32,369 nt of DNA from the NCBI GenBank assembly GCA_015485385.1, contig WFTS01000117.1, forward strand, positions 1 to 32,369, in the 5' to 3' direction. This document shows positions 1,468 through 29,058 of this stretch, piece by piece. Every line of letters starts with the position of its first letter. Positions within the stretch are counted from its first letter, which is position 1. Both the position numbers and the translations under genes were made by a program. The notes beneath the pieces were generated by a model. It searched no databases. It was not told the DNA's origin and was given only the letters and a program-made list of their open reading frames with translations. The DNA comes from Kordiimonadales bacterium. Its GTDB lineage: Bacteria; Pseudomonadota; Alphaproteobacteria; Sphingomonadales; Kordiimonadaceae.

Positions 1468-3231
1468 CTAGAAACTAAAGGCCGCTTCATACAGATCAGG
1501 CAGATTGTTTTCAAATAAAACAGCGTCGCCTGCTTCCCAGTGGCTTTTGGCCCAGTCTTCCGCTTTTTCTTGAGTTTCAAACGTCATTACCGTGACGCTG
1601 CCGTCGTTTTCACGCTCTAAACCTTGCATAAAACTAGGGATGCGCTCAGGTGTGACCACCAAAATAATATCGCAGTGTTTGGCTGCTAACATACCAAGCC
1701 TGTCGTGCTCTTCTGTGTGTTTTGATCCCAGCTCTACCATGCCCGGCGTTAAAAGGATGCGCCGCCCGCCAAGTTCCACAAGCGTATCAAGACATTCCAG
1801 AGCGCTAGCAAAGCCGATCGGGTTGCTGTTATAAGCGTCATTGATCAAAGTTGGCTGGCCCGAATTTCGTGAAACTTCAAGCCTGTGACGAATTTGCGGA
1901 ACAGTGGCCGCCGCCCCTTTGATCGCCGCCCACGGTAGGCCCAGCGCGCGCGCGCAGGCTGCGGCCAGCAGAATATTCCCCGCTTGATGTTTGCCGTAAA
2001 GCGGGGCTTTTATGCTGTGCTCGCCGTCTGTATCTTTTACCACGAGTGTGAGGCCATCTTTATGCTGATCAACGGAGATCAGCACCAGCGCGCTCGTGTT
2101 TGCCTCGGTCGCACCGCCCACAAGCATATAGTCGCCGGGCACAGCCTCCATGCGTTCGGCTAGAAGCCCAGCATCCATCCCGTCTTTGTTGACAACGGTT
2201 GTACCGCCTTGATTAAAAACGGCTTCGGCCAGTTCAAACTTTGCTTTTGCTACAGTTTCAAGGGATTTAAAGCGTTCATAGTGAGCCGCCCCAAGGGCTG
2301 TTATCAGCCCCACGTCGGGCGGTGTTAATTTGCACAGCCGCGCAACCGAACCCGGGCCATATGCCCCCATTTCAACAATGAAATATTGGTGGCTTTCCTC
2401 AAGGGTTTCGCGGATCACGCGGGTGATCCCCATGTCTGTGTTAACGCTGCCGGGTGTGGCAAGCGTGGGGGCTGCTGCGCCTAGAATATGAGACAAGATA
2501 TGTTTGGTGGATGTTTTGCCAAAAGATCCGGTGATTGCGATGGTTTTTGGCTTTAGCCGGTTAAATTTTTCAATTGCTTCGGCGCGAAAGCCCGCTTTGA
2601 CCCTTTCTTCATAAGGCTCCAGTAGTTTTGTCGCCAGCACCAGCACCAGCGGCAAAGCCTGCACCAAAAGGATCAATAAGGCCGCAGCGGCAACAGTTTG
2701 CCAATCATAGGACAAATGCACCAAGGCCACCATATCCAGCCAGCTCTCGCTTGCCGTTTCAACTGTGAGTGCAAAATGATCCCCCTTAGGGGCAAGCAGT
2801 GTGGCGGTATAAAGCAAAAGCGCGCCCCCAAAAGCGAGCAACAGATACACCGCGAGAATACGTTTTGCGCGCGCCGTTAAAACCAGAGGCTTTTTGGAGT
2901 GTTTGCGAACAGCGCGTGATTTCAGGCTGCCGCGTAACAAGCCAATACTTATTAAAGGCCAGATGGCATAGCCAAATATGCCCAAAAGCCACGACCCATC
3001 CTTGACGATCAGTATCTGAGAAACAATGCCCATGATAATGGCTGCAAAAAGCCACAAGCTTGTGCTTTTATCATACCCATTTTTGGCCTTGAGCCACTGA
3101 ATGAACCGAGGGCCATCATATTCTTCCTGTTGGAAAAACATCATCAGGCTAAGCCCGCGCTCCAGTATAAACCACATCAGCAGGACAGCCAGGCTGGCAA
3201 CCAACATCAGATCAAGGGGTAGCTCAGTCAT
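1468..3231 (-). CDS. Membrane-anchored MurF-type Mur ligase
   Basis: The protein has 587 residues. From about residue 230 on, it is a Mur ligase most like MurF, which joins D-Ala-D-Ala to UDP-MurNAc-tripeptide using ATP. Visible motifs are the P-loop GSFGKTST (235-242), VEMGAYGPGSVARL (286-299), GAAHYERFKSLE (314-325), YGKHQAGN (412-419), RHRLEV (448-453), and the MurF-like NDAYNSNP (464-471) followed by GMVELGSKHTEEH. What differs is the N-terminal part. Instead of the soluble UDP-MurNAc-peptide binding domain, it has about 200 residues with roughly five hydrophobic helices (near 6-32, 58-76, 81-99, 124-147 and 179-203). So the catalytic part is tethered to the inner membrane, and the acceptor is likely not the usual soluble nucleotide precursor (inference). 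Its start overlaps the hydrolase stop by 8 bases. It is not expected to be the dcw-cluster murF, which should be elsewhere. Confidence 0.88.
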   Translation of the reverse strand: MTELPLDLMLVASLAVLLMWFILERGLSLMMFFQQEEYDGPRFIQWLKAKNGYDKSTSLWLFAAIIMGIVSQILIVKDGSWLLGIFGYAIWPLISIGLLRGSLKSRAVRKHSKKPLVLTARAKRILAVYLLLAFGGALLLYTATLLAPKGDHFALTVETASESWLDMVALVHLSYDWQTVAAAALLILLVQALPLVLVLATKLLEPYEERVKAGFRAEAIEKFNRLKPKTIAITGSFGKTSTKHILSHILGAAAPTLATPGSVNTDMGITRVIRETLEESHQYFIVEMGAYGPGSVARLCKLTPPDVGLITALGAAHYERFKSLETVAKAKFELAEAVFNQGGTTVVNKDGMDAGLLAERMEAVPGDYMLVGGATEANTSALVLISVDQHKDGLTLVVKDTDGEHSIKAPLYGKHQAGNILLAAACARALGLPWAAIKGAAATVPQIRHRLEVSRNSGQPTLINDAYNSNPIGFASALECLDTLVELGGRRILLTPGMVELGSKHTEEHDRLGMLAAKHCDIILVVTPERIPSFMQGLERENDGSVTVMTFETQEKAEDWAKSHWEAGDAVLFENNLPDLYEAAFSF

Positions 3232-3982
3232 TTTTCAAATCCTTTAAAAACCCTTTGATCAGCGCTTCGCATTGATAGGCCCCGCGCGTTAAAATATCGT
3301 GGTGATTGTAGCCTTTTAGTTCCGTATAGCGCGAAACCGGGATCAGGCGCTCATAGGCTTTGCCAATCTCGCCCGGTGTATCAGTATCATCACTTCCGTA
3401 TAATAACAGTGCAGGGCATGTAATTTGCCGTGCCTGATTGGCCAAATTTTCTGTGACCGCGCTCACAAGGGTTGCGCGCAGCTCCCCTGCATTTTTATAG
3501 TCTTGGCTGCCAAAGCGCGCCACATAAGCGCTACGGAGATTTGTTCCTACGACAGCATCTATCATATGAGCGGCTTTTCCGACCAACTTTAAAAACAGCG
3601 CTTTGGCTTTAAAACCAAGCGAGCGTTTGCGCGGCAGGCCTGCCCCCCCAATTAAAACAATAGCCTTCACCAAGTTAGGGTATCTGGCGGCAACTTGCAC
3701 AGCAAGGCGTCCTCCGTAACTGTGACCGATCAGGATATGGCTGCTGGTTTGATCAAGCTGGGCAGCGAGAGCTTCGGCATAGTCGGCCGTGGAGGCCCCT
3801 TTGAAAAGGGCGGGTGTTTCCCCAAATCCGGGCAGATCAAACTGTGTGGTTACGCTATCCTTTTGAAACAACGTGGCAATGCGGTCAAAACCAGTGTGGT
3901 CATAGCCCCAACCGTGTAGCCAAACAATATTTTGGCCGTGCGTGCCTGTGACATGTTTGTGCCAATGAGGAGCCTTTGTCAT
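3224..3982 (-). CDS. Alpha/beta hydrolase in the Ddl/Mur-ligase operon
   Basis: The protein has 252 residues and is a soluble alpha/beta-fold hydrolase resembling BioH/MhpC-type esterases. The oxyanion region is HGWGYD (23-28). The nucleophile elbow is GHSYGG with Ser88. The acid is probably Asp199 in GSDDTDTP, and the base His227 in GYNHHD. There is no signal peptide, so it should act in the cytoplasm. It begins 3 bases after the Ddl-like stop and overlaps the MurF-like start by 8 bases, so the three genes are very likely co-translated. A pimeloyl-ester hydrolase (BioH) role is possible from sequence alone, but there is no biotin gene nearby. Context instead suggests an esterase, amidase or proofreading role on the product of the two ligases (inference). 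Its substrate cannot be told from the sequence. Confidence 0.88.
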   Translation of the reverse strand: MTKAPHWHKHVTGTHGQNIVWLHGWGYDHTGFDRIATLFQKDSVTTQFDLPGFGETPALFKGASTADYAEALAAQLDQTSSHILIGHSYGGRLAVQVAARYPNLVKAIVLIGGAGLPRKRSLGFKAKALFLKLVGKAAHMIDAVVGTNLRSAYVARFGSQDYKNAGELRATLVSAVTENLANQARQITCPALLLYGSDDTDTPGEIGKAYERLIPVSRYTELKGYNHHDILTRGAYQCEALIKGFLKDLKND

Positions 3983-3985
3983 AGC

Positions 3986-5209
3986 TTAGGGCTTTGTAAA
4001 AATAGTTGCGCCGCCCGAGTTTGCATCGGTCGAGCCAAGGCGCATGGCAGAAAGCGCAAACCCTTCAGAAATAATCGCGTCCGTGAGGGAAAGAAAGCTA
4101 AGCGGTTCGGCTGCGGCTTCCCACAGGAAATAAGCGAACGAGCCCGGGATGGTATTGACCTCATTGAGCCATAGCTCACCGCTTTTGCTGTCACAAAGGA
4201 AATCCACCCGCACGCTACCGGCCAAATCAAGCTGATCAAATATCGTTTGGGCACTTTCACGGATAAAGGTTTCTTGCTCTGGTGTTAGGTCTTCAGGGTT
4301 AAGAGTGCGGTTCAGCGAGACCATGCCTTCGCTTGGGCCACTTTCCAGTTTAGGACCGCCCGGTGCGCCGCCTGCCAGATATTTATTTTTAAAGTCCAAA
4401 AGGTCTGCGTCACTAGAAGGACGCTCAATCGCAGAGCTAACGGCTGTGTTGTTTGCTCGGCGTACGGCCACATTATATTCACATAAATTAGGCACAAAGG
4501 GTTCCACGAGCACGTCACTATCAAGCCGAAATGCTGCCATCAGGGCCGCGATCAGGGCATCCATATCAGGCGCTTTTCCAACACCAACGCTAGAGCCTAA
4601 ATTGCACGGTTTGACAATCAAGGGGTACGGCGCACCGCCAAAGGCATCGGCAAGCTGGGATTTCAGCGTGTCTGGGTCTAAAAACTGGCCTTTTGAGGGC
4701 CGCGTTAAGACCAGTTCGGGCAAAACCTTAATGCCGGCACTGCGGGCAATTTTTTTGGTGAAAATTTTGTTCATTGTCGCAGCCGAGCCAAGCGTGCGGC
4801 ATCCAGAAAACGGAATGGCGGCAAATTCCAACAAGCCCTGCAAGCTACCGTCTTCACCGTTAGAGCCGTGAATTGCGGGCACGATCAGATCAAAATTTAT
4901 AACTGTTCGCTTTTCGCCCATCAGGCCTTTTTGGTATGCCAGAAACCGTGGGCGACCATTGGCTGGGGTGGCAAGATCAAGTGTAAGCTGGGTTAGGCTT
5001 TTTTCTGCTGTTGGGGTTATGGGATACCGGCTGCGGCTTGTTAGCGCCTCGCCGGTCCACCACTGACCAAGCGGGTCAATATAAATGGGCAGGCCCTCAT
5101 ATTTTGCCGGATCAAGCGCCTCAATGAATTGTAGCCCCGATAGGACGCTGACATCATGTTCTACGCTTCTACCGCCAAATACTACAGCAATGACCTTCTT
5201 TGCGGCCAT
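3986..5209 (-). CDS. D-alanine--D-alanine ligase family protein (ATP-grasp)
   Basis: The protein has 407 residues, longer than the usual 300-360 of Ddl. Family motifs are clear: FGGRSVEHDVS (11-21, Glu17), HGSNGEDGSLQG (114-125), the ATP-grasp loop IVKPCNLGSSVGVGK (198-212), VRVDF (333-337) and LNEVNTIPGS (348-357). The omega-loop reads DFKNKYL, keeping the Lys-Tyr pair (276-277) that in E. coli DdlB is Lys215-Tyr216 and is typical of ligases making dipeptides rather than D-Ala-D-lactate. The end of the active site is unusual: after NTIPG comes SFAYFLWE rather than the usual FTxxS, so the Ser that holds the carboxylate of the second residue (DdlB Ser281) appears to be Phe361. The start is ATG 5209, with a GGGGG ribosome site just upstream. 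It is the first gene of the unit ddl-hydrolase-murF. It is probably a paralogue of the cell-wall Ddl with an altered second substrate (inference). Confidence 0.88.
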   Translation of the reverse strand: MAAKKVIAVVFGGRSVEHDVSVLSGLQFIEALDPAKYEGLPIYIDPLGQWWTGEALTSRSRYPITPTAEKSLTQLTLDLATPANGRPRFLAYQKGLMGEKRTVINFDLIVPAIHGSNGEDGSLQGLLEFAAIPFSGCRTLGSAATMNKIFTKKIARSAGIKVLPELVLTRPSKGQFLDPDTLKSQLADAFGGAPYPLIVKPCNLGSSVGVGKAPDMDALIAALMAAFRLDSDVLVEPFVPNLCEYNVAVRRANNTAVSSAIERPSSDADLLDFKNKYLAGGAPGGPKLESGPSEGMVSLNRTLNPEDLTPEQETFIRESAQTIFDQLDLAGSVRVDFLCDSKSGELWLNEVNTIPGSFAYFLWEAAAEPLSFLSLTDAIISEGFALSAMRLGSTDANSGGATIFTKP

Positions 5210-5456: not shown

Positions 5457-6365
5457 ATGACTTTAAAGACGAATTTGATAGCGACGGTTGCGGCTTTGTC
5501 GCTTGCGGGGTCGATAACGGGCGCCCTCAGCGCGCAGGATTTTAGCAAGGTCGAAATAAAAGCCGAGGCCCTACGCGGGAATATATCTGTCTTATACGGT
5601 GCGGGCGGCAATATTGGTGTGTCTGCTGGGGACGACGGCGTTTTCATCGTTGATGATCAATTCGCACCATTGACTGATAAAATCAAAGCAGCCCTTGCGG
5701 GTATTTCTGATAAACCGCTTCGGTTTGTCCTAAACACCCATTTTCACGGTGATCATACCGGTGGGAATGAAAATTTGGGCAAGGGCGGTGCGGTGATTAT
5801 GGCGCATGACAATGTGCGGCAGCGGCTTTCTAAAGGGGCATTTTTAAAAGCCTTCGATATGAAGATGGATCCCGCAAAAATGGCCGCTTTGCCGGTGGTG
5901 ACATTTAACGATAAAATCTCGCTTCATATGAACGGTGAAGAAGCGCGTGTGATCCATGTGAAAAACGCACACACCGATGGTGATAGCATCATCTTTTTCA
6001 AAGGATCGAACGTGATCCATATGGGGGATACATTTTTCAATGATCGGCTCCCCTTTATGGATGTTTCTAACGGCGGCTCGATCGACGGTGTGATCGCCGC
6101 GGCTAAGGCGGTGCTAGAGCTTGCAAATGATGAAACCATCGTTATTCCAGGCCACGGTAAGGTTACCGACAAAGCGGGGGTTCAGGCGTATCTTGTGGCG
6201 CTAGAGGCCTCGCGCAAGATTGTTGCGGCCATGAAGGCAGAGGGAAAGTCTCTGGAAGATATTCAAGCGTCTGGCGCTTTGGCCGATGTGAACGCCAACT
6301 GGCGGGCCAATCCAGAGGGCTGGGTTAAAAAATATATTGGTTTTGTTTATAACAGCCTGAAGTAA
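5457..6365 (+). CDS. Exported metallo-beta-lactamase-fold hydrolase
   Basis: The protein has 302 residues with an N-terminal signal peptide (Lys4, then hydrophobic 6-24, cleavage near LSA-Q at residue 26). The zinc-binding motif is complete: HFHGDH (His95, His97, Asp99, His100), His172 in NAHTDGD, Asp191 in GDTFF, and His233 in PGHG. This arrangement is that of the periplasmic MBL-fold hydrolases often annotated SoxH/quinoprotein-relay-like or 'MBL fold metallo-hydrolase'. True antibiotic lactamase activity is possible but not indicated. The gene is monocistronic, between a good promoter (5389-5416) and a strong terminator (6382-6412). The substrate is unknown. It diverges from the Ddl-like operon, so a cell-envelope role is conceivable, but that is only positional. 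Confidence 0.88.
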   Translation: MTLKTNLIATVAALSLAGSITGALSAQDFSKVEIKAEALRGNISVLYGAGGNIGVSAGDDGVFIVDDQFAPLTDKIKAALAGISDKPLRFVLNTHFHGDHTGGNENLGKGGAVIMAHDNVRQRLSKGAFLKAFDMKMDPAKMAALPVVTFNDKISLHMNGEEARVIHVKNAHTDGDSIIFFKGSNVIHMGDTFFNDRLPFMDVSNGGSIDGVIAAAKAVLELANDETIVIPGHGKVTDKAGVQAYLVALEASRKIVAAMKAEGKSLEDIQASGALADVNANWRANPEGWVKKYIGFVYNSLK

Positions 6366-6381
6366 AACGGGGTTTAAAATG

Positions 6382-6412
6382 AAAAAACAGGGGTCTTTGC
6401 CCCTGTTTTTTT
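6382..6412 (+). terminator. Rho-independent terminator after the metallo-hydrolase
   Basis: An inverted repeat AAAAAACAGGGG (6382-6393) / CCCCTGTTTTTT with a 6-base loop (6394-6399) ends in a run of seven T. The A-tract on the 5' side makes it work in both directions, so it may also stop transcription of the convergent lipoprotein gene. Confidence 0.88.
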
Positions 6413-6466
6413 GATCCTGAACTCTATCGTGTATCCGCAAAAGCGGTTGTAGGCTTGCTTGCTCTA

Positions 6467-7102
6467 TTACATGGCTGCTGGCTTTTCACGCTCAAGCTTT
6501 ATGCGGCGGGTAACACCATTTTCACCGGGGAAATCTTTAAACAGCGCTTCAGCTAAATAAGGCATGATCGCTGGCAAGTCTTTGCGCCGCGTTTCAATTT
6601 CTGATCGGCCTTCAAAGACTGTTTTTCCGTCGGGCGTGCGCAGTTCAAAGACAAGGCGCGCAGTATAAACTGTGCGGGCATAAAGTTCATTTCCGCCAAA
6701 GAAGCCGCCATATCCGGCACCGTAAGGCGCGCCCCAATATTGGCCGTAATAAGCCCCCCCGTAGCCGTGATGCCAATCAAGGCCAACATAAGGCGACAAA
6801 CGGTTTTCAAATTTTTCGCGGCCTTCAGTGATGGTAACATCAAAGCCCGCAATTAATTCAGGCTCTTGCTTGCCGGGCTCTTTATAGCCGTATGCTGCCA
6901 AATGGCTTGCTAAAACACTGGCATATTGCTGAAATTCTAGGCTTTCAACCTTATCGGCAAGCATGGGCGTGATCCTTACGCGTTCGCCGCCCGGAGAGGT
7001 TAGTTCGTGAAACGTTGCCACGCTGCTGCGGATACTATTGGAACAAGCGGCCAAAGCAAATAAGCCCAGCGCCAAAATAACCTTGTTCAAAATAGATTTC
7101 AT
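6467..7102 (-). CDS. DUF4136 family lipoprotein
   Basis: The protein has 211 residues. The signal peptide ends in the lipobox LAAC with Cys20, so it should be a lipid-anchored envelope protein. The residue after Cys is Ser, not Asp, which favours outer-membrane sorting by the usual Lol rule. The rest fits DUF4136: an N-terminal FHELTSPGGERVRITP segment, a middle stretch with FDVTITEGREKF, and a C-terminal YTARLVFELRTPDGKTVFEGRSE. Between them, residues 112-137 are extremely rich in Gly and Tyr. The function of the family is unknown. Upstream there is a TAGGAGACGG ribosome site and a candidate promoter with an overlapping inverted repeat (7176-7219), so the gene is probably transcribed alone. 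Confidence 0.85.
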   Translation of the reverse strand: MKSILNKVILALGLFALAACSNSIRSSVATFHELTSPGGERVRITPMLADKVESLEFQQYASVLASHLAAYGYKEPGKQEPELIAGFDVTITEGREKFENRLSPYVGLDWHHGYGGAYYGQYWGAPYGAGYGGFFGGNELYARTVYTARLVFELRTPDGKTVFEGRSEIETRRKDLPAIMPYLAEALFKDFPGENGVTRRIKLEREKPAAM

Positions 7103-7175
7103 CTTACCGTCTCCTAAAAGGCCGATTTTCCAAATGGGGTAAAATCAGCGAATACACGCACACTAAAGGTTTCTT

Positions 7176-7203
7176 ACTATAGGCATGAAACCAAATGCAT
7201 CAA
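7176..7203 (-). promoter_or_regulatory. Putative promoter of the DUF4136 lipoprotein gene
   Basis: On the minus strand, TTGATG (7203-7198) is followed after 16 bases by TATAGT (7181-7176). The -35 box lies inside an inverted repeat (7197-7219), so a bound regulator would compete with RNA polymerase. The start codon is about 75 bases downstream. Confidence 0.45.
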
Positions 7204-7219
7204 CCTCAATCATTGATGC
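7197..7219. promoter_or_regulatory. Inverted repeat GCATCAA-N9-TTGATGC, candidate operator
   Basis: A perfect 7-base inverted repeat (7197-7203 and 7213-7219) with a 9-base centre overlaps the predicted -35 box of the lipoprotein gene. The size (23 bp) and position are typical of a dimeric repressor site. There is no U-tract, so it is not a terminator. No regulator gene is next to it. Confidence 0.45.
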
Positions 7220-7321
7220 CAACTGCGGGATTACCTTAGCTAGGCCTGCCTGAACGGCAGCTTAACAAAGCTTGAACATGGACGCTGCCCTTTGAGCTGA
7301 AAACTGTTTGGCCTTTTGGGC

Positions 7322-8418: not shown

Positions 8419-9981
8419 TCAGCCTGAACGGCGCATAAAGGCTTTGATTTCGGCCCGAGAGAGGGTGCGCAGAAGGATATTGGCCCCAAGATATGTGGCC
8501 CCGCCCAGAGCAACGAGACCCATCAGGGTCAAAATGCGCACACTGCCGTCAGCCGCAAAGCTTGCGGTCACCATGTCACCAGCAAAAAAAAGGGCTGCGC
8601 CCATAATAGAGCTGGCGAACACACATTTCCCAATGCGCCGCTTTGTGGCGGCTAGTAAAGTTAGGTGCCCTCGGGATTTCAACCCCCAATACAGCATAAA
8701 AACATTAACCCAAGCCGCAATTGCGGTGGCCGCCGCCAGCCCGACATGGGCAAAATATTGGATGAGAATGATATTGAGCGTGGTGTTAACCACCAGCGAT
8801 ATAATGCCGAACCTCACTGGGGTTTTGGTGTCTTTGCGGGCAAAATAACCGGGGGTTAAGGCTTTGGCGATCACATAAGCGGGCAGGCCAAGGGCATAAA
8901 CCATCAAGGCTGCGGCTGCGGCCTCGGTATCAGCAGCAGAAAAGGCACCGCGTTCAAACAAGGTGGCAATGATGGGTGCCGCGATAAGCGCCAAGGCCGT
9001 TGCGGCAGGCAGGGTTAAAAACAGTGAAAATTCCAGCGCCTTATTTTGTTGCAGGTTGGCGGCATCCTCTTCTTTGGCTGACAAAAGCCTGGAAATGCTT
9101 GGCAGCAGGACGGTGCCAACGGCGACTCCGATTACACCAAGGGGCAATTGGCTTAGTCTATCGGCGTAGGATAACCACGAGATAGACCCTTCCGGTAAAT
9201 ACCGGGCCGCGATCACCAGATCGATAAAGAGGTTTATCTGCATGACCCCGGCCCCAATGGCGGCTGGACCGAGAATGATAAACAATTCTTTGACATCGGG
9301 GGATAACCGGGGGCGCGGCAGCGATATGCGGATGCCAGCACGGCGGGCGCTGATATAAAGCAGCAGCAGCTGCGCAAACCCTGCAACCGAGACAGAAATC
9401 GCAAGCGCCCGCGCACCAGCCACATCGGTTTCGGCAAAATAAACAAGCGCTGCGATCATGCAGGCATTTAGCAAAACCGGGGCAAAGGCTGCGGCAGAAT
9501 AGCGGCTATAAGCGTTAAGCATACCCGCGTAAAAAGAGACCAACGAGATTAAGATTAGATAAGGGAATGTAAAGCGCCCTAATTCGACAACAAAGTTAAA
9601 TTTGGCACTGTCACCCTCAAAGCCTCCGGTTAAGCCCAGCATGACCGGAGCCATGCCCACTTCCATAATCACAAGAAAAATTAGGAGAACAGGCAAAAAC
9701 CAACTTAGGACGCGCCCGGCGAAGGCTTCGGCTGCATGGCGGCTTTCTGGGGTTATCTCATTGCCAAGGGCTCTTGAAAACAAAGGCACGAAGGCCGCAG
9801 AAAAAGCACCCTCCGCAAACAAGCGGCGGAAAAAATTGGGGACTTTAAAGGCAATAAAAAAGGCATCTGCCGCCATGCCAGCCCCTAGATAGCGCGCCAG
9901 AAGCACATCGCGTACAAACCCGAAAATTCGGGATAGCAAGGTGAACCCACCCACGGTTGAGATGTTTTTTACAAGGCTCAA
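8419..9981 (-). CDS. murJ: Lipid II flippase MurJ
   Basis: The protein has 520 residues with about 14 hydrophobic helices, a member of the MATE-like MOP flippases that move lipid II across the inner membrane for peptidoglycan synthesis. The N-terminus [25 protein letters not shown] is the family's standard beginning, with [12 protein letters not shown] and [18 protein letters not shown] following. The start is TTG 9981, which overlaps the glnD stop in the sequence TTGA. This start is supported by the canonical N-terminus and by the overlap, which suggests translational coupling. It is also called mviN in older annotation. Confidence 0.95.
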
Positions 9982-24469: not shown

Positions 24470-26050
24470 TTAATTTGCCATATTTTTCAGGCGGCGTCTT
24501 TGCACAGACGAGGGTATGCGCAGCGCCTCTCGGTATTTTGCAACCGTACGCCGCGCAATATCAATGCCTTCAGCTTTCATCAAAACAACAAGCTTGTCGT
24601 CGGATAAAATTTTCTTCGGAGCTTCGGCATCTATCAGTTCTTTTAAGCGAAACTTGACCGACTCGGCGGAATGGGCATCACCGCCGTCAGCTGCGGAAAT
24701 AGAGGACGTGAAGAAATACTTCAGTTCAAACATGCCGCGAGAGCAGGCCATAAACTTATTATTGGTGACACGGGAAACGGTCGATTCGTGCATCTCAATA
24801 TCATCAGCAATGTCTTTTAGCGTCAAAGGTTTCAAAAACCGCACCCCATGCTCGAAAAACAGTGCTTGGCGTTTTACTAGCGCGGTTGAGACTTTTAAAA
24901 TTGTACGCGCGCGCTGATCAAGGGCTTTCACTAGCCAATTGGCATTGGAAACACAGTCAGAGACAAAAGCTTTTTCTTCTTTGTTGCCGCCGATATCTTT
25001 TAGCTCGTTAACATATTGGCTGTTGACCAATACCTTTGGCAATGTGTCGCTATTTAGCTCAACAACCCATGTGCCAGCGCGGGTTTTTTTAATAAAGATA
25101 TCCGGTACGACGGGCTGCACAGATTCGCCGCCGTATGCTAGGCCCGGTTTGGGGTTAAGGGTGCGAATTTCGCGCACCATATCGGCAATGTCTTCTTGGT
25201 CTACACCGCAAATCCGCCGCAGCGCTGTCATGTCGCGCTTGGCCAACAGATCAAGGTTCTCCACCAAGGCCTGCATTGCAGGGTCGTAGCGGTCTAGTTC
25301 CCTAAGCTGTAGCGCCAAACATTCTGACAAGGTGCGCGCAAAAACACCCGATGGTTCGAGCGATTGCAAAGAAAGTAACGTTGCCTCGACCAAGCGTGGT
25401 TCAACGCCCAGCCGAGGTGCAACATCAGCAAGAGCATCCGCATCCACATATCCGGCCTCATCCACCAGATCAATCAGGTGAACAGCGATAAACCGCTCTG
25501 CAGGCTCGGTAAGCTGGATCGCCATTTGTCGGGTTAGGAAATCATGTAAATTTTCTTCCCCCTCAAGCGTTTGATCAAGGCTGCGTTCGTCAGAAAAGCC
25601 GCCACCGCCCTTTATGGCCCCCGCGCCTTCATAATTTAGGCCACTAGAACCAGAATTTTGCAGGTCGGTTCGGTCAGAAACAGCGTCATTATTGTAAATG
25701 TTGGTTTCAAAATTGGCATCAAGCGCACTGTCAGCGGCTGAACCGGTATCAACAGCGCTTGCAAGACTTTTGTCGGCCGCAACCAAACCATCGCTGGCAT
25801 TTTCTGCACTGCCGCCCTCGCGCATACCCTCATCTGTGGCGGTGCCGCCCTGTTCGCCGCCCCTTTGGGTCGGGCCCGTTTCAGCATTTGGATCCCCAAC
25901 TTCTAAAATTGGGTTGCGCTCAACTTCTTCAGAGACATAATCTGCAAGTTCCAGATTAGACAGCTGCAACAGCTTGATCGCCTGCTGCAACTGGGGTGTC
26001 ATCACCAGTTGTTGGCTTTGGCGTAAATCTAATCTGGGGGTAAGTGCCAT
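24470..26050 (-). CDS. rpoN: RNA polymerase sigma-54 factor
   Basis: RpoN directs RNA polymerase to -24/-12 promoters and needs an AAA+ activator. The 526 residues show the three regions. Region I begins LDLRQSQQLVMTPQLQQAIKLL. Region II (about 52-160) is a long acidic, Gly/Ser/Ala-rich linker. The core-binding and DNA-binding part follows, with HESTVSRVTNNKF (HTH) and the C-terminal RpoN box ARRTVAKYREALRIPSS near 500-516. An AlgU or NtrC dependence cannot be told. It is placed between lptB and hpf-ptsN, the standard arrangement. The same window encodes a matching GAFTGA activator and GlnD. Confidence 0.97.
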   Translation of the reverse strand: MALTPRLDLRQSQQLVMTPQLQQAIKLLQLSNLELADYVSEEVERNPILEVGDPNAETGPTQRGGEQGGTATDEGMREGGSAENASDGLVAADKSLASAVDTGSAADSALDANFETNIYNNDAVSDRTDLQNSGSSGLNYEGAGAIKGGGGFSDERSLDQTLEGEENLHDFLTRQMAIQLTEPAERFIAVHLIDLVDEAGYVDADALADVAPRLGVEPRLVEATLLSLQSLEPSGVFARTLSECLALQLRELDRYDPAMQALVENLDLLAKRDMTALRRICGVDQEDIADMVREIRTLNPKPGLAYGGESVQPVVPDIFIKKTRAGTWVVELNSDTLPKVLVNSQYVNELKDIGGNKEEKAFVSDCVSNANWLVKALDQRARTILKVSTALVKRQALFFEHGVRFLKPLTLKDIADDIEMHESTVSRVTNNKFMACSRGMFELKYFFTSSISAADGGDAHSAESVKFRLKELIDAEAPKKILSDDKLVVLMKAEGIDIARRTVAKYREALRIPSSVQRRRLKNMAN

Positions 26051-26060
26051 TTATCAAACC

Positions 26061-26840
26061 CTACAAACTGAAGCTTTCACCGAGATAAACCCGGCGAACA
26101 TCTTCACTTTTTAGCACTTCCTCTGCAGTGCCTTCGAACAAGACATGACCATCATAGATAATGAAGGCGCGGTCGATAATATCCAGCGTTTCCCTGACGT
26201 TATGGTCCGTGATCAAAACCCCGATATCGCGGTCTTTCAAATGGTGGGTCAGGTCGCGAATATCAGAAATTGCGATCGGATCAATACCGGCAAAGGGCTC
26301 ATCCAGCAGTATAAAATCAGGACGGGCCGCCAATGCGCGCGCAATTTCGCAGCGCCTGCGCTCACCGCCTGAAAGCGCCAGCGCTGGAGTATTCCGAAGA
26401 TGCGTGATTGAAAATTCATCCAGTAGCTCGTCTAGTTTCGCACGGCGCTGTGCACGGTCAACTTCAACCACCTCTAGCACTGCGAGGATATTTTCTGCCA
26501 CGGTCATGCCGCGGAAAATAGAGGTTTCCTGCGGTAGATAGCCAATACCCAACCGCGCCCGGCGGTACATGGGTAAATGGGTGATATTTTCACCGTTTAG
26601 CTCAATGCGACCATGATCGGGGGCGATCAGCCCGGTGATGGAATAAAAACATGTGGTTTTGCCTGCACCGTTAGGGCCTAAAAGCCCCACCACTTCGCCG
26701 CGCCGCACGTTTAGAGAGACATCCCGCAAAACCGGTCGGCCACCGTAGGATTTTGCAATCCCGCACACCGCCAGACCCTGCGAGCAAGTGGCATCTGATG
26801 CCTTTTCTTTAGATGTACCCATTTGGCCGTCTAAGCCCAT
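26061..26840 (-). CDS. lptB: Lipopolysaccharide transport ATP-binding protein LptB
   Basis: LptB is the ATPase of the LptB2FGC transporter that extracts LPS from the inner membrane. Visible motifs are Walker A GPNGAGKTT, the Q-loop in GYLPQETSIFRG, the ABC signature LSGGERRR and Walker B FILLDEPFAGID, with the switch His in LITDHNVRET. The core begins near GLAVCGIAKSYGG. In front is a short extension whose start is unsure: ATG 26840 (259 residues), TTG 26852 or ATG 26822. The gene is separated from lptA by about 240 bases and lies 10 bases before rpoN, so it is probably read with rpoN. Confidence 0.95.
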   Translation of the reverse strand: MGLDGQMGTSKEKASDATCSQGLAVCGIAKSYGGRPVLRDVSLNVRRGEVVGLLGPNGAGKTTCFYSITGLIAPDHGRIELNGENITHLPMYRRARLGIGYLPQETSIFRGMTVAENILAVLEVVEVDRAQRRAKLDELLDEFSITHLRNTPALALSGGERRRCEIARALAARPDFILLDEPFAGIDPIAISDIRDLTHHLKDRDIGVLITDHNVRETLDIIDRAFIIYDGHVLFEGTAEEVLKSEDVRRVYLGESFSL

Positions 26841-27086
26841 ACCCAATTCCAACTTTGTCTCAGCAATCAGCAGATCATACCATGACTAAAAACTGATTGG
26901 CTCATTTTATGCATACCTATTGTCAATAAATCATGAACAGGCATGCGGTTCCATAAAAAATTCGGTAATATTTTGAGGGATGCCCCCTAAAAACCACATC
27001 AAGCTAGGCCACGTTAACCATGTTCATGCGGGAAAGCTGGGGCTTGCTTGAATTTGATAGCCTTTCAGGGGGGCTTGTTGTCTGGC

Positions 27087-28446: not shown

Positions 28447-29058
28447 CTAGTGTGAAAAAATATCTATTTCGCCGTATCCGGCTAGGTCCATATCACAGCG
28501 TGTGGGCAAAAACGCAAATGCGGCTTCCGCTAGATGGGTGCGTCCTTCGCGTATCAACATTGTGTCGAGTTTGGCTTTTACCGTGTGCAAATATAATACA
28601 TCAGACGCGGCATAATCTTTTTGCGCATCACTGATTTCGTCTGCACCCCAATCACTTGATTGCTGCTGTTTGTCGAGGCTGACCCCACCTAGTTCACGGC
28701 ATAAGTCTTTCAGGCCGTGACGATCAGTGTAGGTGCGAACTAGTTTGGATGCGATTTTGGTGCAATAAACCGGGCTTGTATCAACACCGAGATATTTTTT
28801 CATCACCGCGACATCAAAGCGGGCGAAGTGAAAAATTTTCAGCACATCTGGGTTCGTTAGAAGTGCTTTCAGGTTCGGAGCTGCATAGGCGCCTTGTTTG
28901 AATTTTACCAGATGCGCATCGCCGTTACCGTCAGACAATTGCACCAAGCACAGCCTATCCCTGTGCGGGTTTAGGCCCATGGTCTCGCTGTCGATGGCAA
29001 CCGAGTCCCCAAAATCCAGCCCATCAGGCAGATCACCCTCATATAGATAATTGGCCAT
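28447..29058 (-). CDS. rnd: Ribonuclease D, short form
   Basis: This 3'-5' exonuclease trims tRNA and other RNA 3' ends. The 203 residues hold the DEDD exonuclease domain: Asp23 and Glu25 in AIDSETMGL, Asp82 in HFARFDVAVM, and Tyr149 with Asp153 in DYAASDVLYL. The C-terminal HRDC domains of the E. coli enzyme are absent, as is usual for the short proteins found upstream of lptC in alphaproteobacteria. A good AGGGAGG site lies upstream of the ATG. It is probably first in the rnd-lptCA operon. Confidence 0.9.
   Translation of the reverse strand: MANYLYEGDLPDGLDFGDSVAIDSETMGLNPHRDRLCLVQLSDGNGDAHLVKFKQGAYAAPNLKALLTNPDVLKIFHFARFDVAVMKKYLGVDTSPVYCTKIASKLVRTYTDRHGLKDLCRELGGVSLDKQQQSSDWGADEISDAQKDYAASDVLYLHTVKAKLDTMLIREGRTHLAEAAFAFLPTRCDMDLAGYGEIDIFSH

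Follow-up and report, generated by a model that had tools for sequence, protein, structure and literature searches.

The analysed stretch (the window) comprises the 32,369 nucleotides of contig WFTS01000117.1 from a Kordiimonadales bacterium (GCA_015485385.1) and corresponds to contig C117 in an assembly labelled G000, which has 167 contigs totalling 2.97 Mb and is 93% complete. Three minus-strand genes in the window, here termed the triad, encode a Ddl-type ATP-grasp ligase, an alpha/beta hydrolase and a MurF-like ligase fused to membrane helices that is designated MURFL (Table 1). The open reading frames (ORFs) are packed exactly as claimed in an earlier sequence-only reading: a 3-base gap separates ddl from the hydrolase gene, which in turn overlaps the MURFL gene by 8 bases. 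The purine-rich stretch AAGGGGGACC precedes the ddl start, and a scan for promoters and terminators revealed nothing above chance level. The comparisons described below indicate that the triad is likely to be a D-Ala-D-Ala module of peptidoglycan synthesis, located here outside the dcw (division and cell wall) cluster, in which MURFL does the job of the ordinary MurF enzyme.

Table 1. Positions of the triad genes, of the two parts of MURFL and of the nearby murJ gene in the window (aa, amino acids; TM, transmembrane).
Feature	Position	Strand	Details
ddl (Ddl-type ATP-grasp, D-Ala-D-Ala ligase type)	3986-5209	minus	407 aa; PF01820 and PF07478
Alpha/beta hydrolase	3224-3982	minus	252 aa; PF00561/PF12697; catalytic triad Ser88-Asp199-His227
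MURFL, membrane MurF (MurF-like ligase)	1468-3231	minus	587 aa; PF08245 and PF02875
MURFL residues 1-204: predicted TM region and loops QQEEYDxxRFxxW, KKPLVxTxRAKR	2620-3231	minus	Alignments; conservation by segment
MURFL residues 228-587: Mur catalytic domains	1471-2550	minus	Columns counted in 37 relatives
murJ (lipid II flippase), context outside the triad	8419-9981	minus	TIGR01695, 430 bits, over cut-off

The two Pfam domains of MURFL scored over their cut-offs, which bears out its earlier description as a MurF-type ligase. The PF01225 N-domain was not found in MURFL, and no Pfam match precedes residue 233 at E 0.001. The place of the UDP (uridine diphosphate)-binding N-domain of MurF is occupied instead by five membrane helices (residues 6-35, 56-78, 90-110, 120-144 and 177-226) that are predicted by hydropathy and by a structure model with a mean predicted local distance difference test score (pLDDT) of 91.7 and a predicted template modelling score (pTM) of 0.87. 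The two conserved loops in this region (residues 34-46 and 113-124 in alignments) have mean conservation values of 0.53 and 0.56, compared with 0.53 for the catalytic domains and 0.09 for the long loop on the other side. The segment 104-124 contains nine Lys or Arg and zero acidic residues. From the charge pattern of the protein we infer that the conserved loops and the catalytic part lie on the cytoplasmic side. The catalytic part includes the P-loop GSFGKTS (235-241), Glu287, His317, Lys331, Asn419, Arg450 and Asp465, along with the motifs DAYNSNP (465-471) and ENNLPD (574-579). All 37 relatives that were compared retain Gly235, Gly238, Lys239, Glu287, His317, Asn419, Arg450 and Asp465, and Lys331 is kept in 36 of them; which of these residues are catalytic follows from what is known of Mur ligases in general. 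The top NCBIfam and PDB sequence matches of MURFL are MurF, and the best solved fold for the model is Acinetobacter baumannii MurF (4qf5; E 3.8e-25 over 372 columns).

The relationship with MurF also was evident in a midpoint-drawn tree of the Mur middle and C-terminal domains. The 29 MURFL rows formed one clade (support 100/99) that is sister to 18 MurF rows (99/95), and the two groups were joined at 99/96 apart from MurE, MurC and one MurD. The tree took 31 of the 37 rows of the MURFL alignment, and nine of 67 rows that did not contain the P-loop pattern, including four of five MurD rows, were removed. Thus, the phylogeny that the sequence-only reading had proposed places MURFL with MurF and not with MurE or MurC, in a tree that held no CapB or CphA rows.

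Strong MURFL matches occurred in 42 of 59 genomes of the order (G000 counted), and strong matches to the triad-type Ddl were present in exactly the same 42: all 29 genomes of the family to which the window belongs and, in three other families, 13 of 14. Neither occurs in the remaining 17 genomes. Fifteen of the latter show a weak Ddl match on contigs that also carry dcw Mur ligase matches some kilobases away; for 13 of the 15 the match lies in a frame of 307-333 aa. The order of the triad genes is constant while the flanking genes differ between families of the order. All three genes were visible in 16 of 20 compared loci; L061 ends inside ddl, and in L047, L058 and L060 an overlap filter hid ORFs and the places of the genes are known from Ddl and MURFL profile searches.

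When the MURFL alignment was used to search named genomes, it identified at least 582 stretches that encode relatives, of which the best 80 were studied as loci. MURFL taxa include Alphaproteobacteria, Clostridia, Bacteroidales, Chloroflexi, Poribacteria, Melainabacteria, cyanobacteria (Chamaesiphon), Omnitrophota and Deltaproteobacteria, although many of the 80 loci derive from metagenome-assembled genomes (MAGs) whose taxon labels may be wrong. MURFL is present in all 80 loci, ddl is in the locus in 62, ddl is near and on the same strand in 44, and ddl together with an upstream hydrolase gene is found in 43. Three Poribacteria loci have the order ftsI-murE-hydrolase-MURFL-ddl-mraY-murD, so that the set occupies the place of murF. 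In five alphaproteobacterial loci (L067, L069, L070, L076 and L077) hydrolase-MURFL is situated between murB and ddl on the opposite strand. The earlier suggestion that the triad is separate from dcw genes therefore holds in the genome of the window, where murJ nevertheless is ~3 kb upstream, but not in some other taxa in which the set is inside dcw. As strong Ddl and MURFL matches share the same 42 genomes among the 59 and the set is found again in distant phyla, the arrangement is conserved and the genes are not together by chance, which settles the neighborhood question that the sequence-only reading had raised.

The fate of the ordinary murF gene was followed in 28 of the 29 family genomes (G009 was left out). 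In 11 of the 28 the dcw copy has been removed, truncated or stripped of its active-site motifs. In seven (G003, G005, G013, G014, G015, G017 and G018) murE runs straight into mraY, and a whole-genome search at E 1e-12 detected no other MurF in these genomes. No murF relic was apparent in the murF-less dcw stretches L153, L154, L156-L159, L204 and L186, in which tblastn matches to MurF were all inside murE. Two genomes retain a murF stump that does not include the P-loop (332 aa in G001 and 329 aa in G011). In a further two (G021 and G028) a 473 aa ORF persists but no longer encodes the Lys of the P-loop, the His and Lys sites or the DDSYNANP motif. Five additional genomes, the window's own together with G008, G019, G024 and G026, carry one or two changes at six sites. 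These sites were assessed among 31 MurF rows compared at eight columns, of which six were counted: the GxH column, which has His in five genomes that do not possess the triad and another residue in 20 of 21 family rows, and the Arg column, which varies everywhere, were left out. The dcw MurF in the window's genome (699-2153 of L012, contig C120) has Arg in the column of the catalytic His, and Thr replaces the Asn of DDSYNANP, giving DDSYTANP; the Asn of this motif also is altered in G019 and G026. The protein may be inactive, judging from these changes in one assembly only. Among the 17 genomes of the order that do not contain the triad, dcw MurF was intact in all five that were read (G031, G032, G035, G037 and G046). 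Elsewhere, murE is followed by mraY with no murF between them in Blastochloris sulfoviridis DSM 729 and in a Balneola MAG, and G345 has a 425 aa murF remnant. The murE, mraY and murD genes persist in the murF-less dcw stretches that were read.

The same trend was observed across the class. In a sample of 289 alphaproteobacterial genomes, with MURFL called at E <=1e-80, an ordinary MurF over the cut-off was present in two of 20 genomes with MURFL compared with 241 of 269 genomes without it (Fisher 2e-14, a value that ignores kinship). A looser count at E <=1e-40 with MURFL set aside gave MurF in five of the 20 (G000, G172, G222, G254 and G275) versus 254 of the 269. When 35 genomes from many phyla, chosen for holding MURFL, were read by eye among matches listed down to about 1e-18, ordinary MurF was noted in 12 (over the cut-off in 10), a relic in one and none in 18, and four were unclear. 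A whole-genome MurF search of 30 genomes, again by eye, found MurF in three and a probable MurE-MurF fusion in one (G222); eight genomes of the order were without MurF and four had relics, and 14 other alphaproteobacterial genomes, one of which (G194) is 83% complete, were without full MurF. In a TIGR01085 search of 26 genomes drawn from the MURFL-only genomes and their kin, 24 had a MurE over the cut-off, and so the missing MurF does not reflect an overall shortage of Mur ligases. One of the two exceptions, G361, has a MurE slightly under the cut-off (244 of 257 bits); the other, G352, has no good MurE, and so its absence of MurF counts little. The lower TIGR01143 matches in MURFL-only genomes were considered as candidate MurF proteins and rejected in view of these MurE assignments.

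Several unusual Mur ligase frames were encountered during these searches. In G107 (1654-4065 of L196) a single 803 aa frame comprises MurE and, after it, a shortened MurF part. Long MurE frames of 760-778 aa are present in G078, G209 and G306, with a further MurF-like N-terminal part in G078 only. A 991 aa frame in a gut alphaproteobacterial MAG (G348; C29:28042-30921) gives two MurE matches (365 and 339 bits) and appears to be a MurE-MurE tandem. Two paired Mur-ligase-like proteins, encoded by frames of roughly 939 and 586 aa, are found in G003 (C6:322574-325372) and its kin, which include several genomes of the same genus; these may be cyanophycin-type synthetases.

The Ddl of the triad belongs to the Ddl family, as had been proposed, with scores over the cut-offs for PF01820 (102 bits) and PF07478 (about 109-110 bits). 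The protein is under the NCBIfam subfamily cut-offs (238.9 of 262 bits for NF002528 and 233.5 of 245.65 for TIGR01205). The Lys-Tyr of the DFKNKY motif, which we regard as a mark of D-Ala-D-Ala ligases, is invariant in 12 Ddl relatives. A D-Ala-D-Lac or D-Ser enzyme was considered as a different identity and is not favored, as the Van families are far under their cut-offs and the Lys-Tyr pair is invariant. The sequence-only reading had advocated a search for a second murF and a second ddl in the genome. The former exists in dcw on C120 as described above, but the latter was not found with the PF07478 and PF01820 profiles. The three further PF07478 matches in the genome (on C47, C143 and C89; 31-43 bits; frames of 452-685 aa) are taken to be biotin-carboxylase-type proteins. 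More broadly, PF01820 revealed one Ddl per genome in all 21 MURFL genomes given to the search and, in three genomes without MURFL, a single split match apiece, such that all 24 that were tested have one Ddl locus. The dcw genes of the window's genome, named by similarity and order, reside on C120 and C41 (murE, murF, mraY, murD, ftsW, murG, murC, murB, ftsQ, ftsA and ftsZ). DdlB is located between murB and ftsQ in dcw clusters, but here murB (5539-6483) abuts ftsQ (6480-7256) with no ddl between them. As no second ddl was found, the triad Ddl most probably serves as the ordinary enzyme of the cell wall.

The third member of the set was correctly recognized as a serine hydrolase with a full catalytic triad, which is invariant across 34 hydrolases, as are the cap residues Ser159 and Asp161. 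The latter pair may, speculatively, hold an amino group. The cap also includes a distinct conserved FGSxDY segment. The structure model (pLDDT 96.6) most closely resembles BioH and other esterases, with many esterases matched, and among the NCBIfam models shown the best match (85 of 300 bits) was far under the cut-off. In 71 of 80 loci the gene is directly upstream of MURFL and in the same orientation. The hydrolase thus is closely tied to MURFL but, as it is unseen in the other nine, is taken to be accessory: it might act as an editing or clearing enzyme that perhaps removes wrong or surplus D-amino-acyl products.

In the proposed mechanism, Ddl would make D-Ala-D-Ala, which membrane-embedded MURFL would join to the tripeptide stem, in an ATP-dependent reaction on the inner side of the membrane. 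The ligation step is inferred from the loss of murF and from synteny. The acceptor probably is undecaprenyl-linked (lipid I or lipid II tripeptide), and not UDP-N-acetylmuramic acid (UDP-MurNAc)-tripeptide. This preference is by analogy with MurT, a Mur ligase homologue that amidates lipid I and lipid II and not UDP precursors (sections of PMC6085368). As MURFL does not possess the uridine-nucleotide domain, but has helices and conserved loops instead, the lipid-linked tripeptide is slightly ahead of the UDP-linked form. More tentatively, MraY could take UDP-MurNAc-tripeptide, with the membrane MurF adding D-Ala-D-Ala later to lipid I or lipid II tripeptide, in which case the Park nucleotide (UDP-MurNAc-pentapeptide) would not be made; this order of steps is judged possible, at somewhat less than even probability.

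A related and credible, though less likely, explanation is that MURFL does perform the job of MurF, but on UDP-MurNAc-tripeptide, with helices that merely anchor the enzyme near MraY for channeling and loops that bind the nucleotide. The position of MURFL and Ddl immediately before mraY in the three Poribacteria loci is in keeping with this possibility, and the basic segment 104-124 could bind the pyrophosphate of either carrier. However, the PF01225 domain that MURFL does not contain is the uridine-binding part of Mur ligases (in the consulted sections of PMC6085368), and the loops are conserved to the same extent as the catalytic domains, which exceeds what an anchor needs, although a nucleotide site also would explain this conservation.

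Certain observations weigh against the replacement of MurF by MURFL, whichever the carrier. The match of MURFL to the MurF model TIGR01143 covers only positions 64-403 and, at 208.3 bits, does not reach the cut-off of 288.6. The dcw MurF is intact at the six checked sites in 12 of the 28 family genomes and in five of six examined genomes that carry the triad within the order but outside this family (G034, G039, G045, G047 and G050; MurF is lost in G033), and three Bacillota genomes encode a strong ordinary MurF (372-436 bits) beside MURFL. In addition, 15 of the 269 alphaproteobacterial genomes without MURFL likewise have no MurF at E 1e-40, and thus absence alone is not proof. Within the DNA examined, in which some of the 80 loci end close to the MURFL gene, the hydrolase is unseen in nine loci (e.g., L100, L117 and L129) and ddl in 18. 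The coexistence of both enzymes in the 12 family genomes and in Bacillota would suit a parallel path in which MURFL adds D-Ala-D-Ala to a non-peptidoglycan acceptor while dcw MurF makes the wall, which resembles the branch that the sequence-only reading had envisaged. This possibility is regarded as improbable as there is a single Ddl and the dcw murF gene decays: 11 of 28 family genomes have a deleted or gutted ordinary MurF, and the protein is under the cut-off or absent in 18 of the 20 MURFL genomes in the class sample. Moreover, the retention of murE, mraY and murD in murF-less dcw stretches and the position of MURFL at the place of murF in Poribacteria argue against it. The earlier idea of a membrane-bound acceptor is plausible, but that of a side branch outside the wall does not find favor. 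Some bacteria rely on L,D-transpeptidation, and MURFL genomes conceivably might use tri- or tetrapeptide stems, rendering MurF needless and leaving MURFL with another job. This scenario of loss without replacement is considered very improbable, since each of the 21 MURFL genomes given to the PF01820 search retains a single Ddl, within or close to the set, that would be useless without a step that adds D-Ala-D-Ala, and MURFL keeps the checked Mur catalytic residues. Overall, substitution of MurF by MURFL in peptidoglycan synthesis is the preferred interpretation.

Other genes in the window were cataloged in relation to the triad. Minus-strand genes further upstream of ddl encode a DUF4136 protein, TrpS, MurJ, GlnD and MutS according to Pfam and NCBIfam. 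The murJ-trpS-DUF4136-triad neighborhood is seen in several family genomes, which fits with a role in the cell wall. A tetratricopeptide repeat protein gene (239-1291) is convergent with the MURFL gene and occupies the same place in the family loci that were seen. A gene for a metallo-beta-lactamase-fold protein (5457-6365) is divergent from the triad and stays beside it in many family genomes; the protein is nearest to SoxH-related hydrolases of the pyrroloquinoline quinone relay type (93 of 280 bits). More distantly, rpoN (sigma-54) and a gene for an ATP-binding cassette (ABC) ATPase adjoin each other at 24470-26852, and a 3'-5' exonuclease gene (28447-29058) is near this pair. The ABC ATPase presumably is of the lipopolysaccharide-export type based on its position.

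MurF is regarded as a drug target and as an enzyme that is both soluble and conserved. If the interpretation advanced here is correct, a membrane MurF branch that replaces MurF in several phyla would change gene-presence calls for genomes that seemingly are without murF, would alter antibiotic-target logic, and possibly also would modify the order of steps in peptidoglycan synthesis. The nature of the tripeptide carrier, UDP or undecaprenyl, at the point of D-Ala-D-Ala addition becomes a directly testable question.

A description of a membrane MurF or of the triad was not found among the matches listed in the literature searched, including the available sections of PMC9045246; subscription journals are largely external to that literature. 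A Mur ligase phylogeny does not mention the MURFL branch in the parts consulted (PMC11915815). Loss of murB and ddlB from dcw is described for the FBC (Fibrobacteres-Bacteroidetes-Chlorobi) superphylum in sections of PMC8871954. In Clostridioides difficile, ddl (CD1408) is reported to be essential (PMC6143707, in part), and ddl and murF are among precursor genes with CRISPR interference (CRISPRi) phenotypes in sections of PMC12548448, although this murF was not matched to MURFL. The triad Ddl is expected to catalyze the same reaction as DdlB of dcw, but is about 405 aa in length and is only weakly similar to the shorter Ddl frames of triad-less relatives. The hydrolase has the fold and catalytic triad of BioH and EstV-type alpha/beta hydrolases, but is distinguished by its distance from the NCBIfam cut-offs and by its FGSxDY cap segment. 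Other rearranged forms of MurF are the MurE-MurF fusions (8F5D) and the MurF-alanine racemase fusions (PRK11930), which are soluble and have N-domains. MURFL is like MurF itself (TIGR01143; 1GG4, 4QF5) in the middle and C-terminal domains, the P-loop, the His, Lys and Asp residues and the YN.NP motif, but differs in having five predicted helices in lieu of a UDP-binding N-domain, in its association with the hydrolase and Ddl, and in its score under the family cut-off. No glutaminase was detected by Pfam among the 20 proteins of the window; GatD was not searched for genome-wide. MurT of the MurT/GatD complex, being homologous to the Mur ligases and active on lipid I and lipid II, provides a precedent for the acceptor proposed for MURFL (sections of PMC6085368). 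However, MurT amidates D-Glu in conjunction with GatD, whereas the partners of MURFL are Ddl and the hydrolase, and MURFL has predicted membrane helices.

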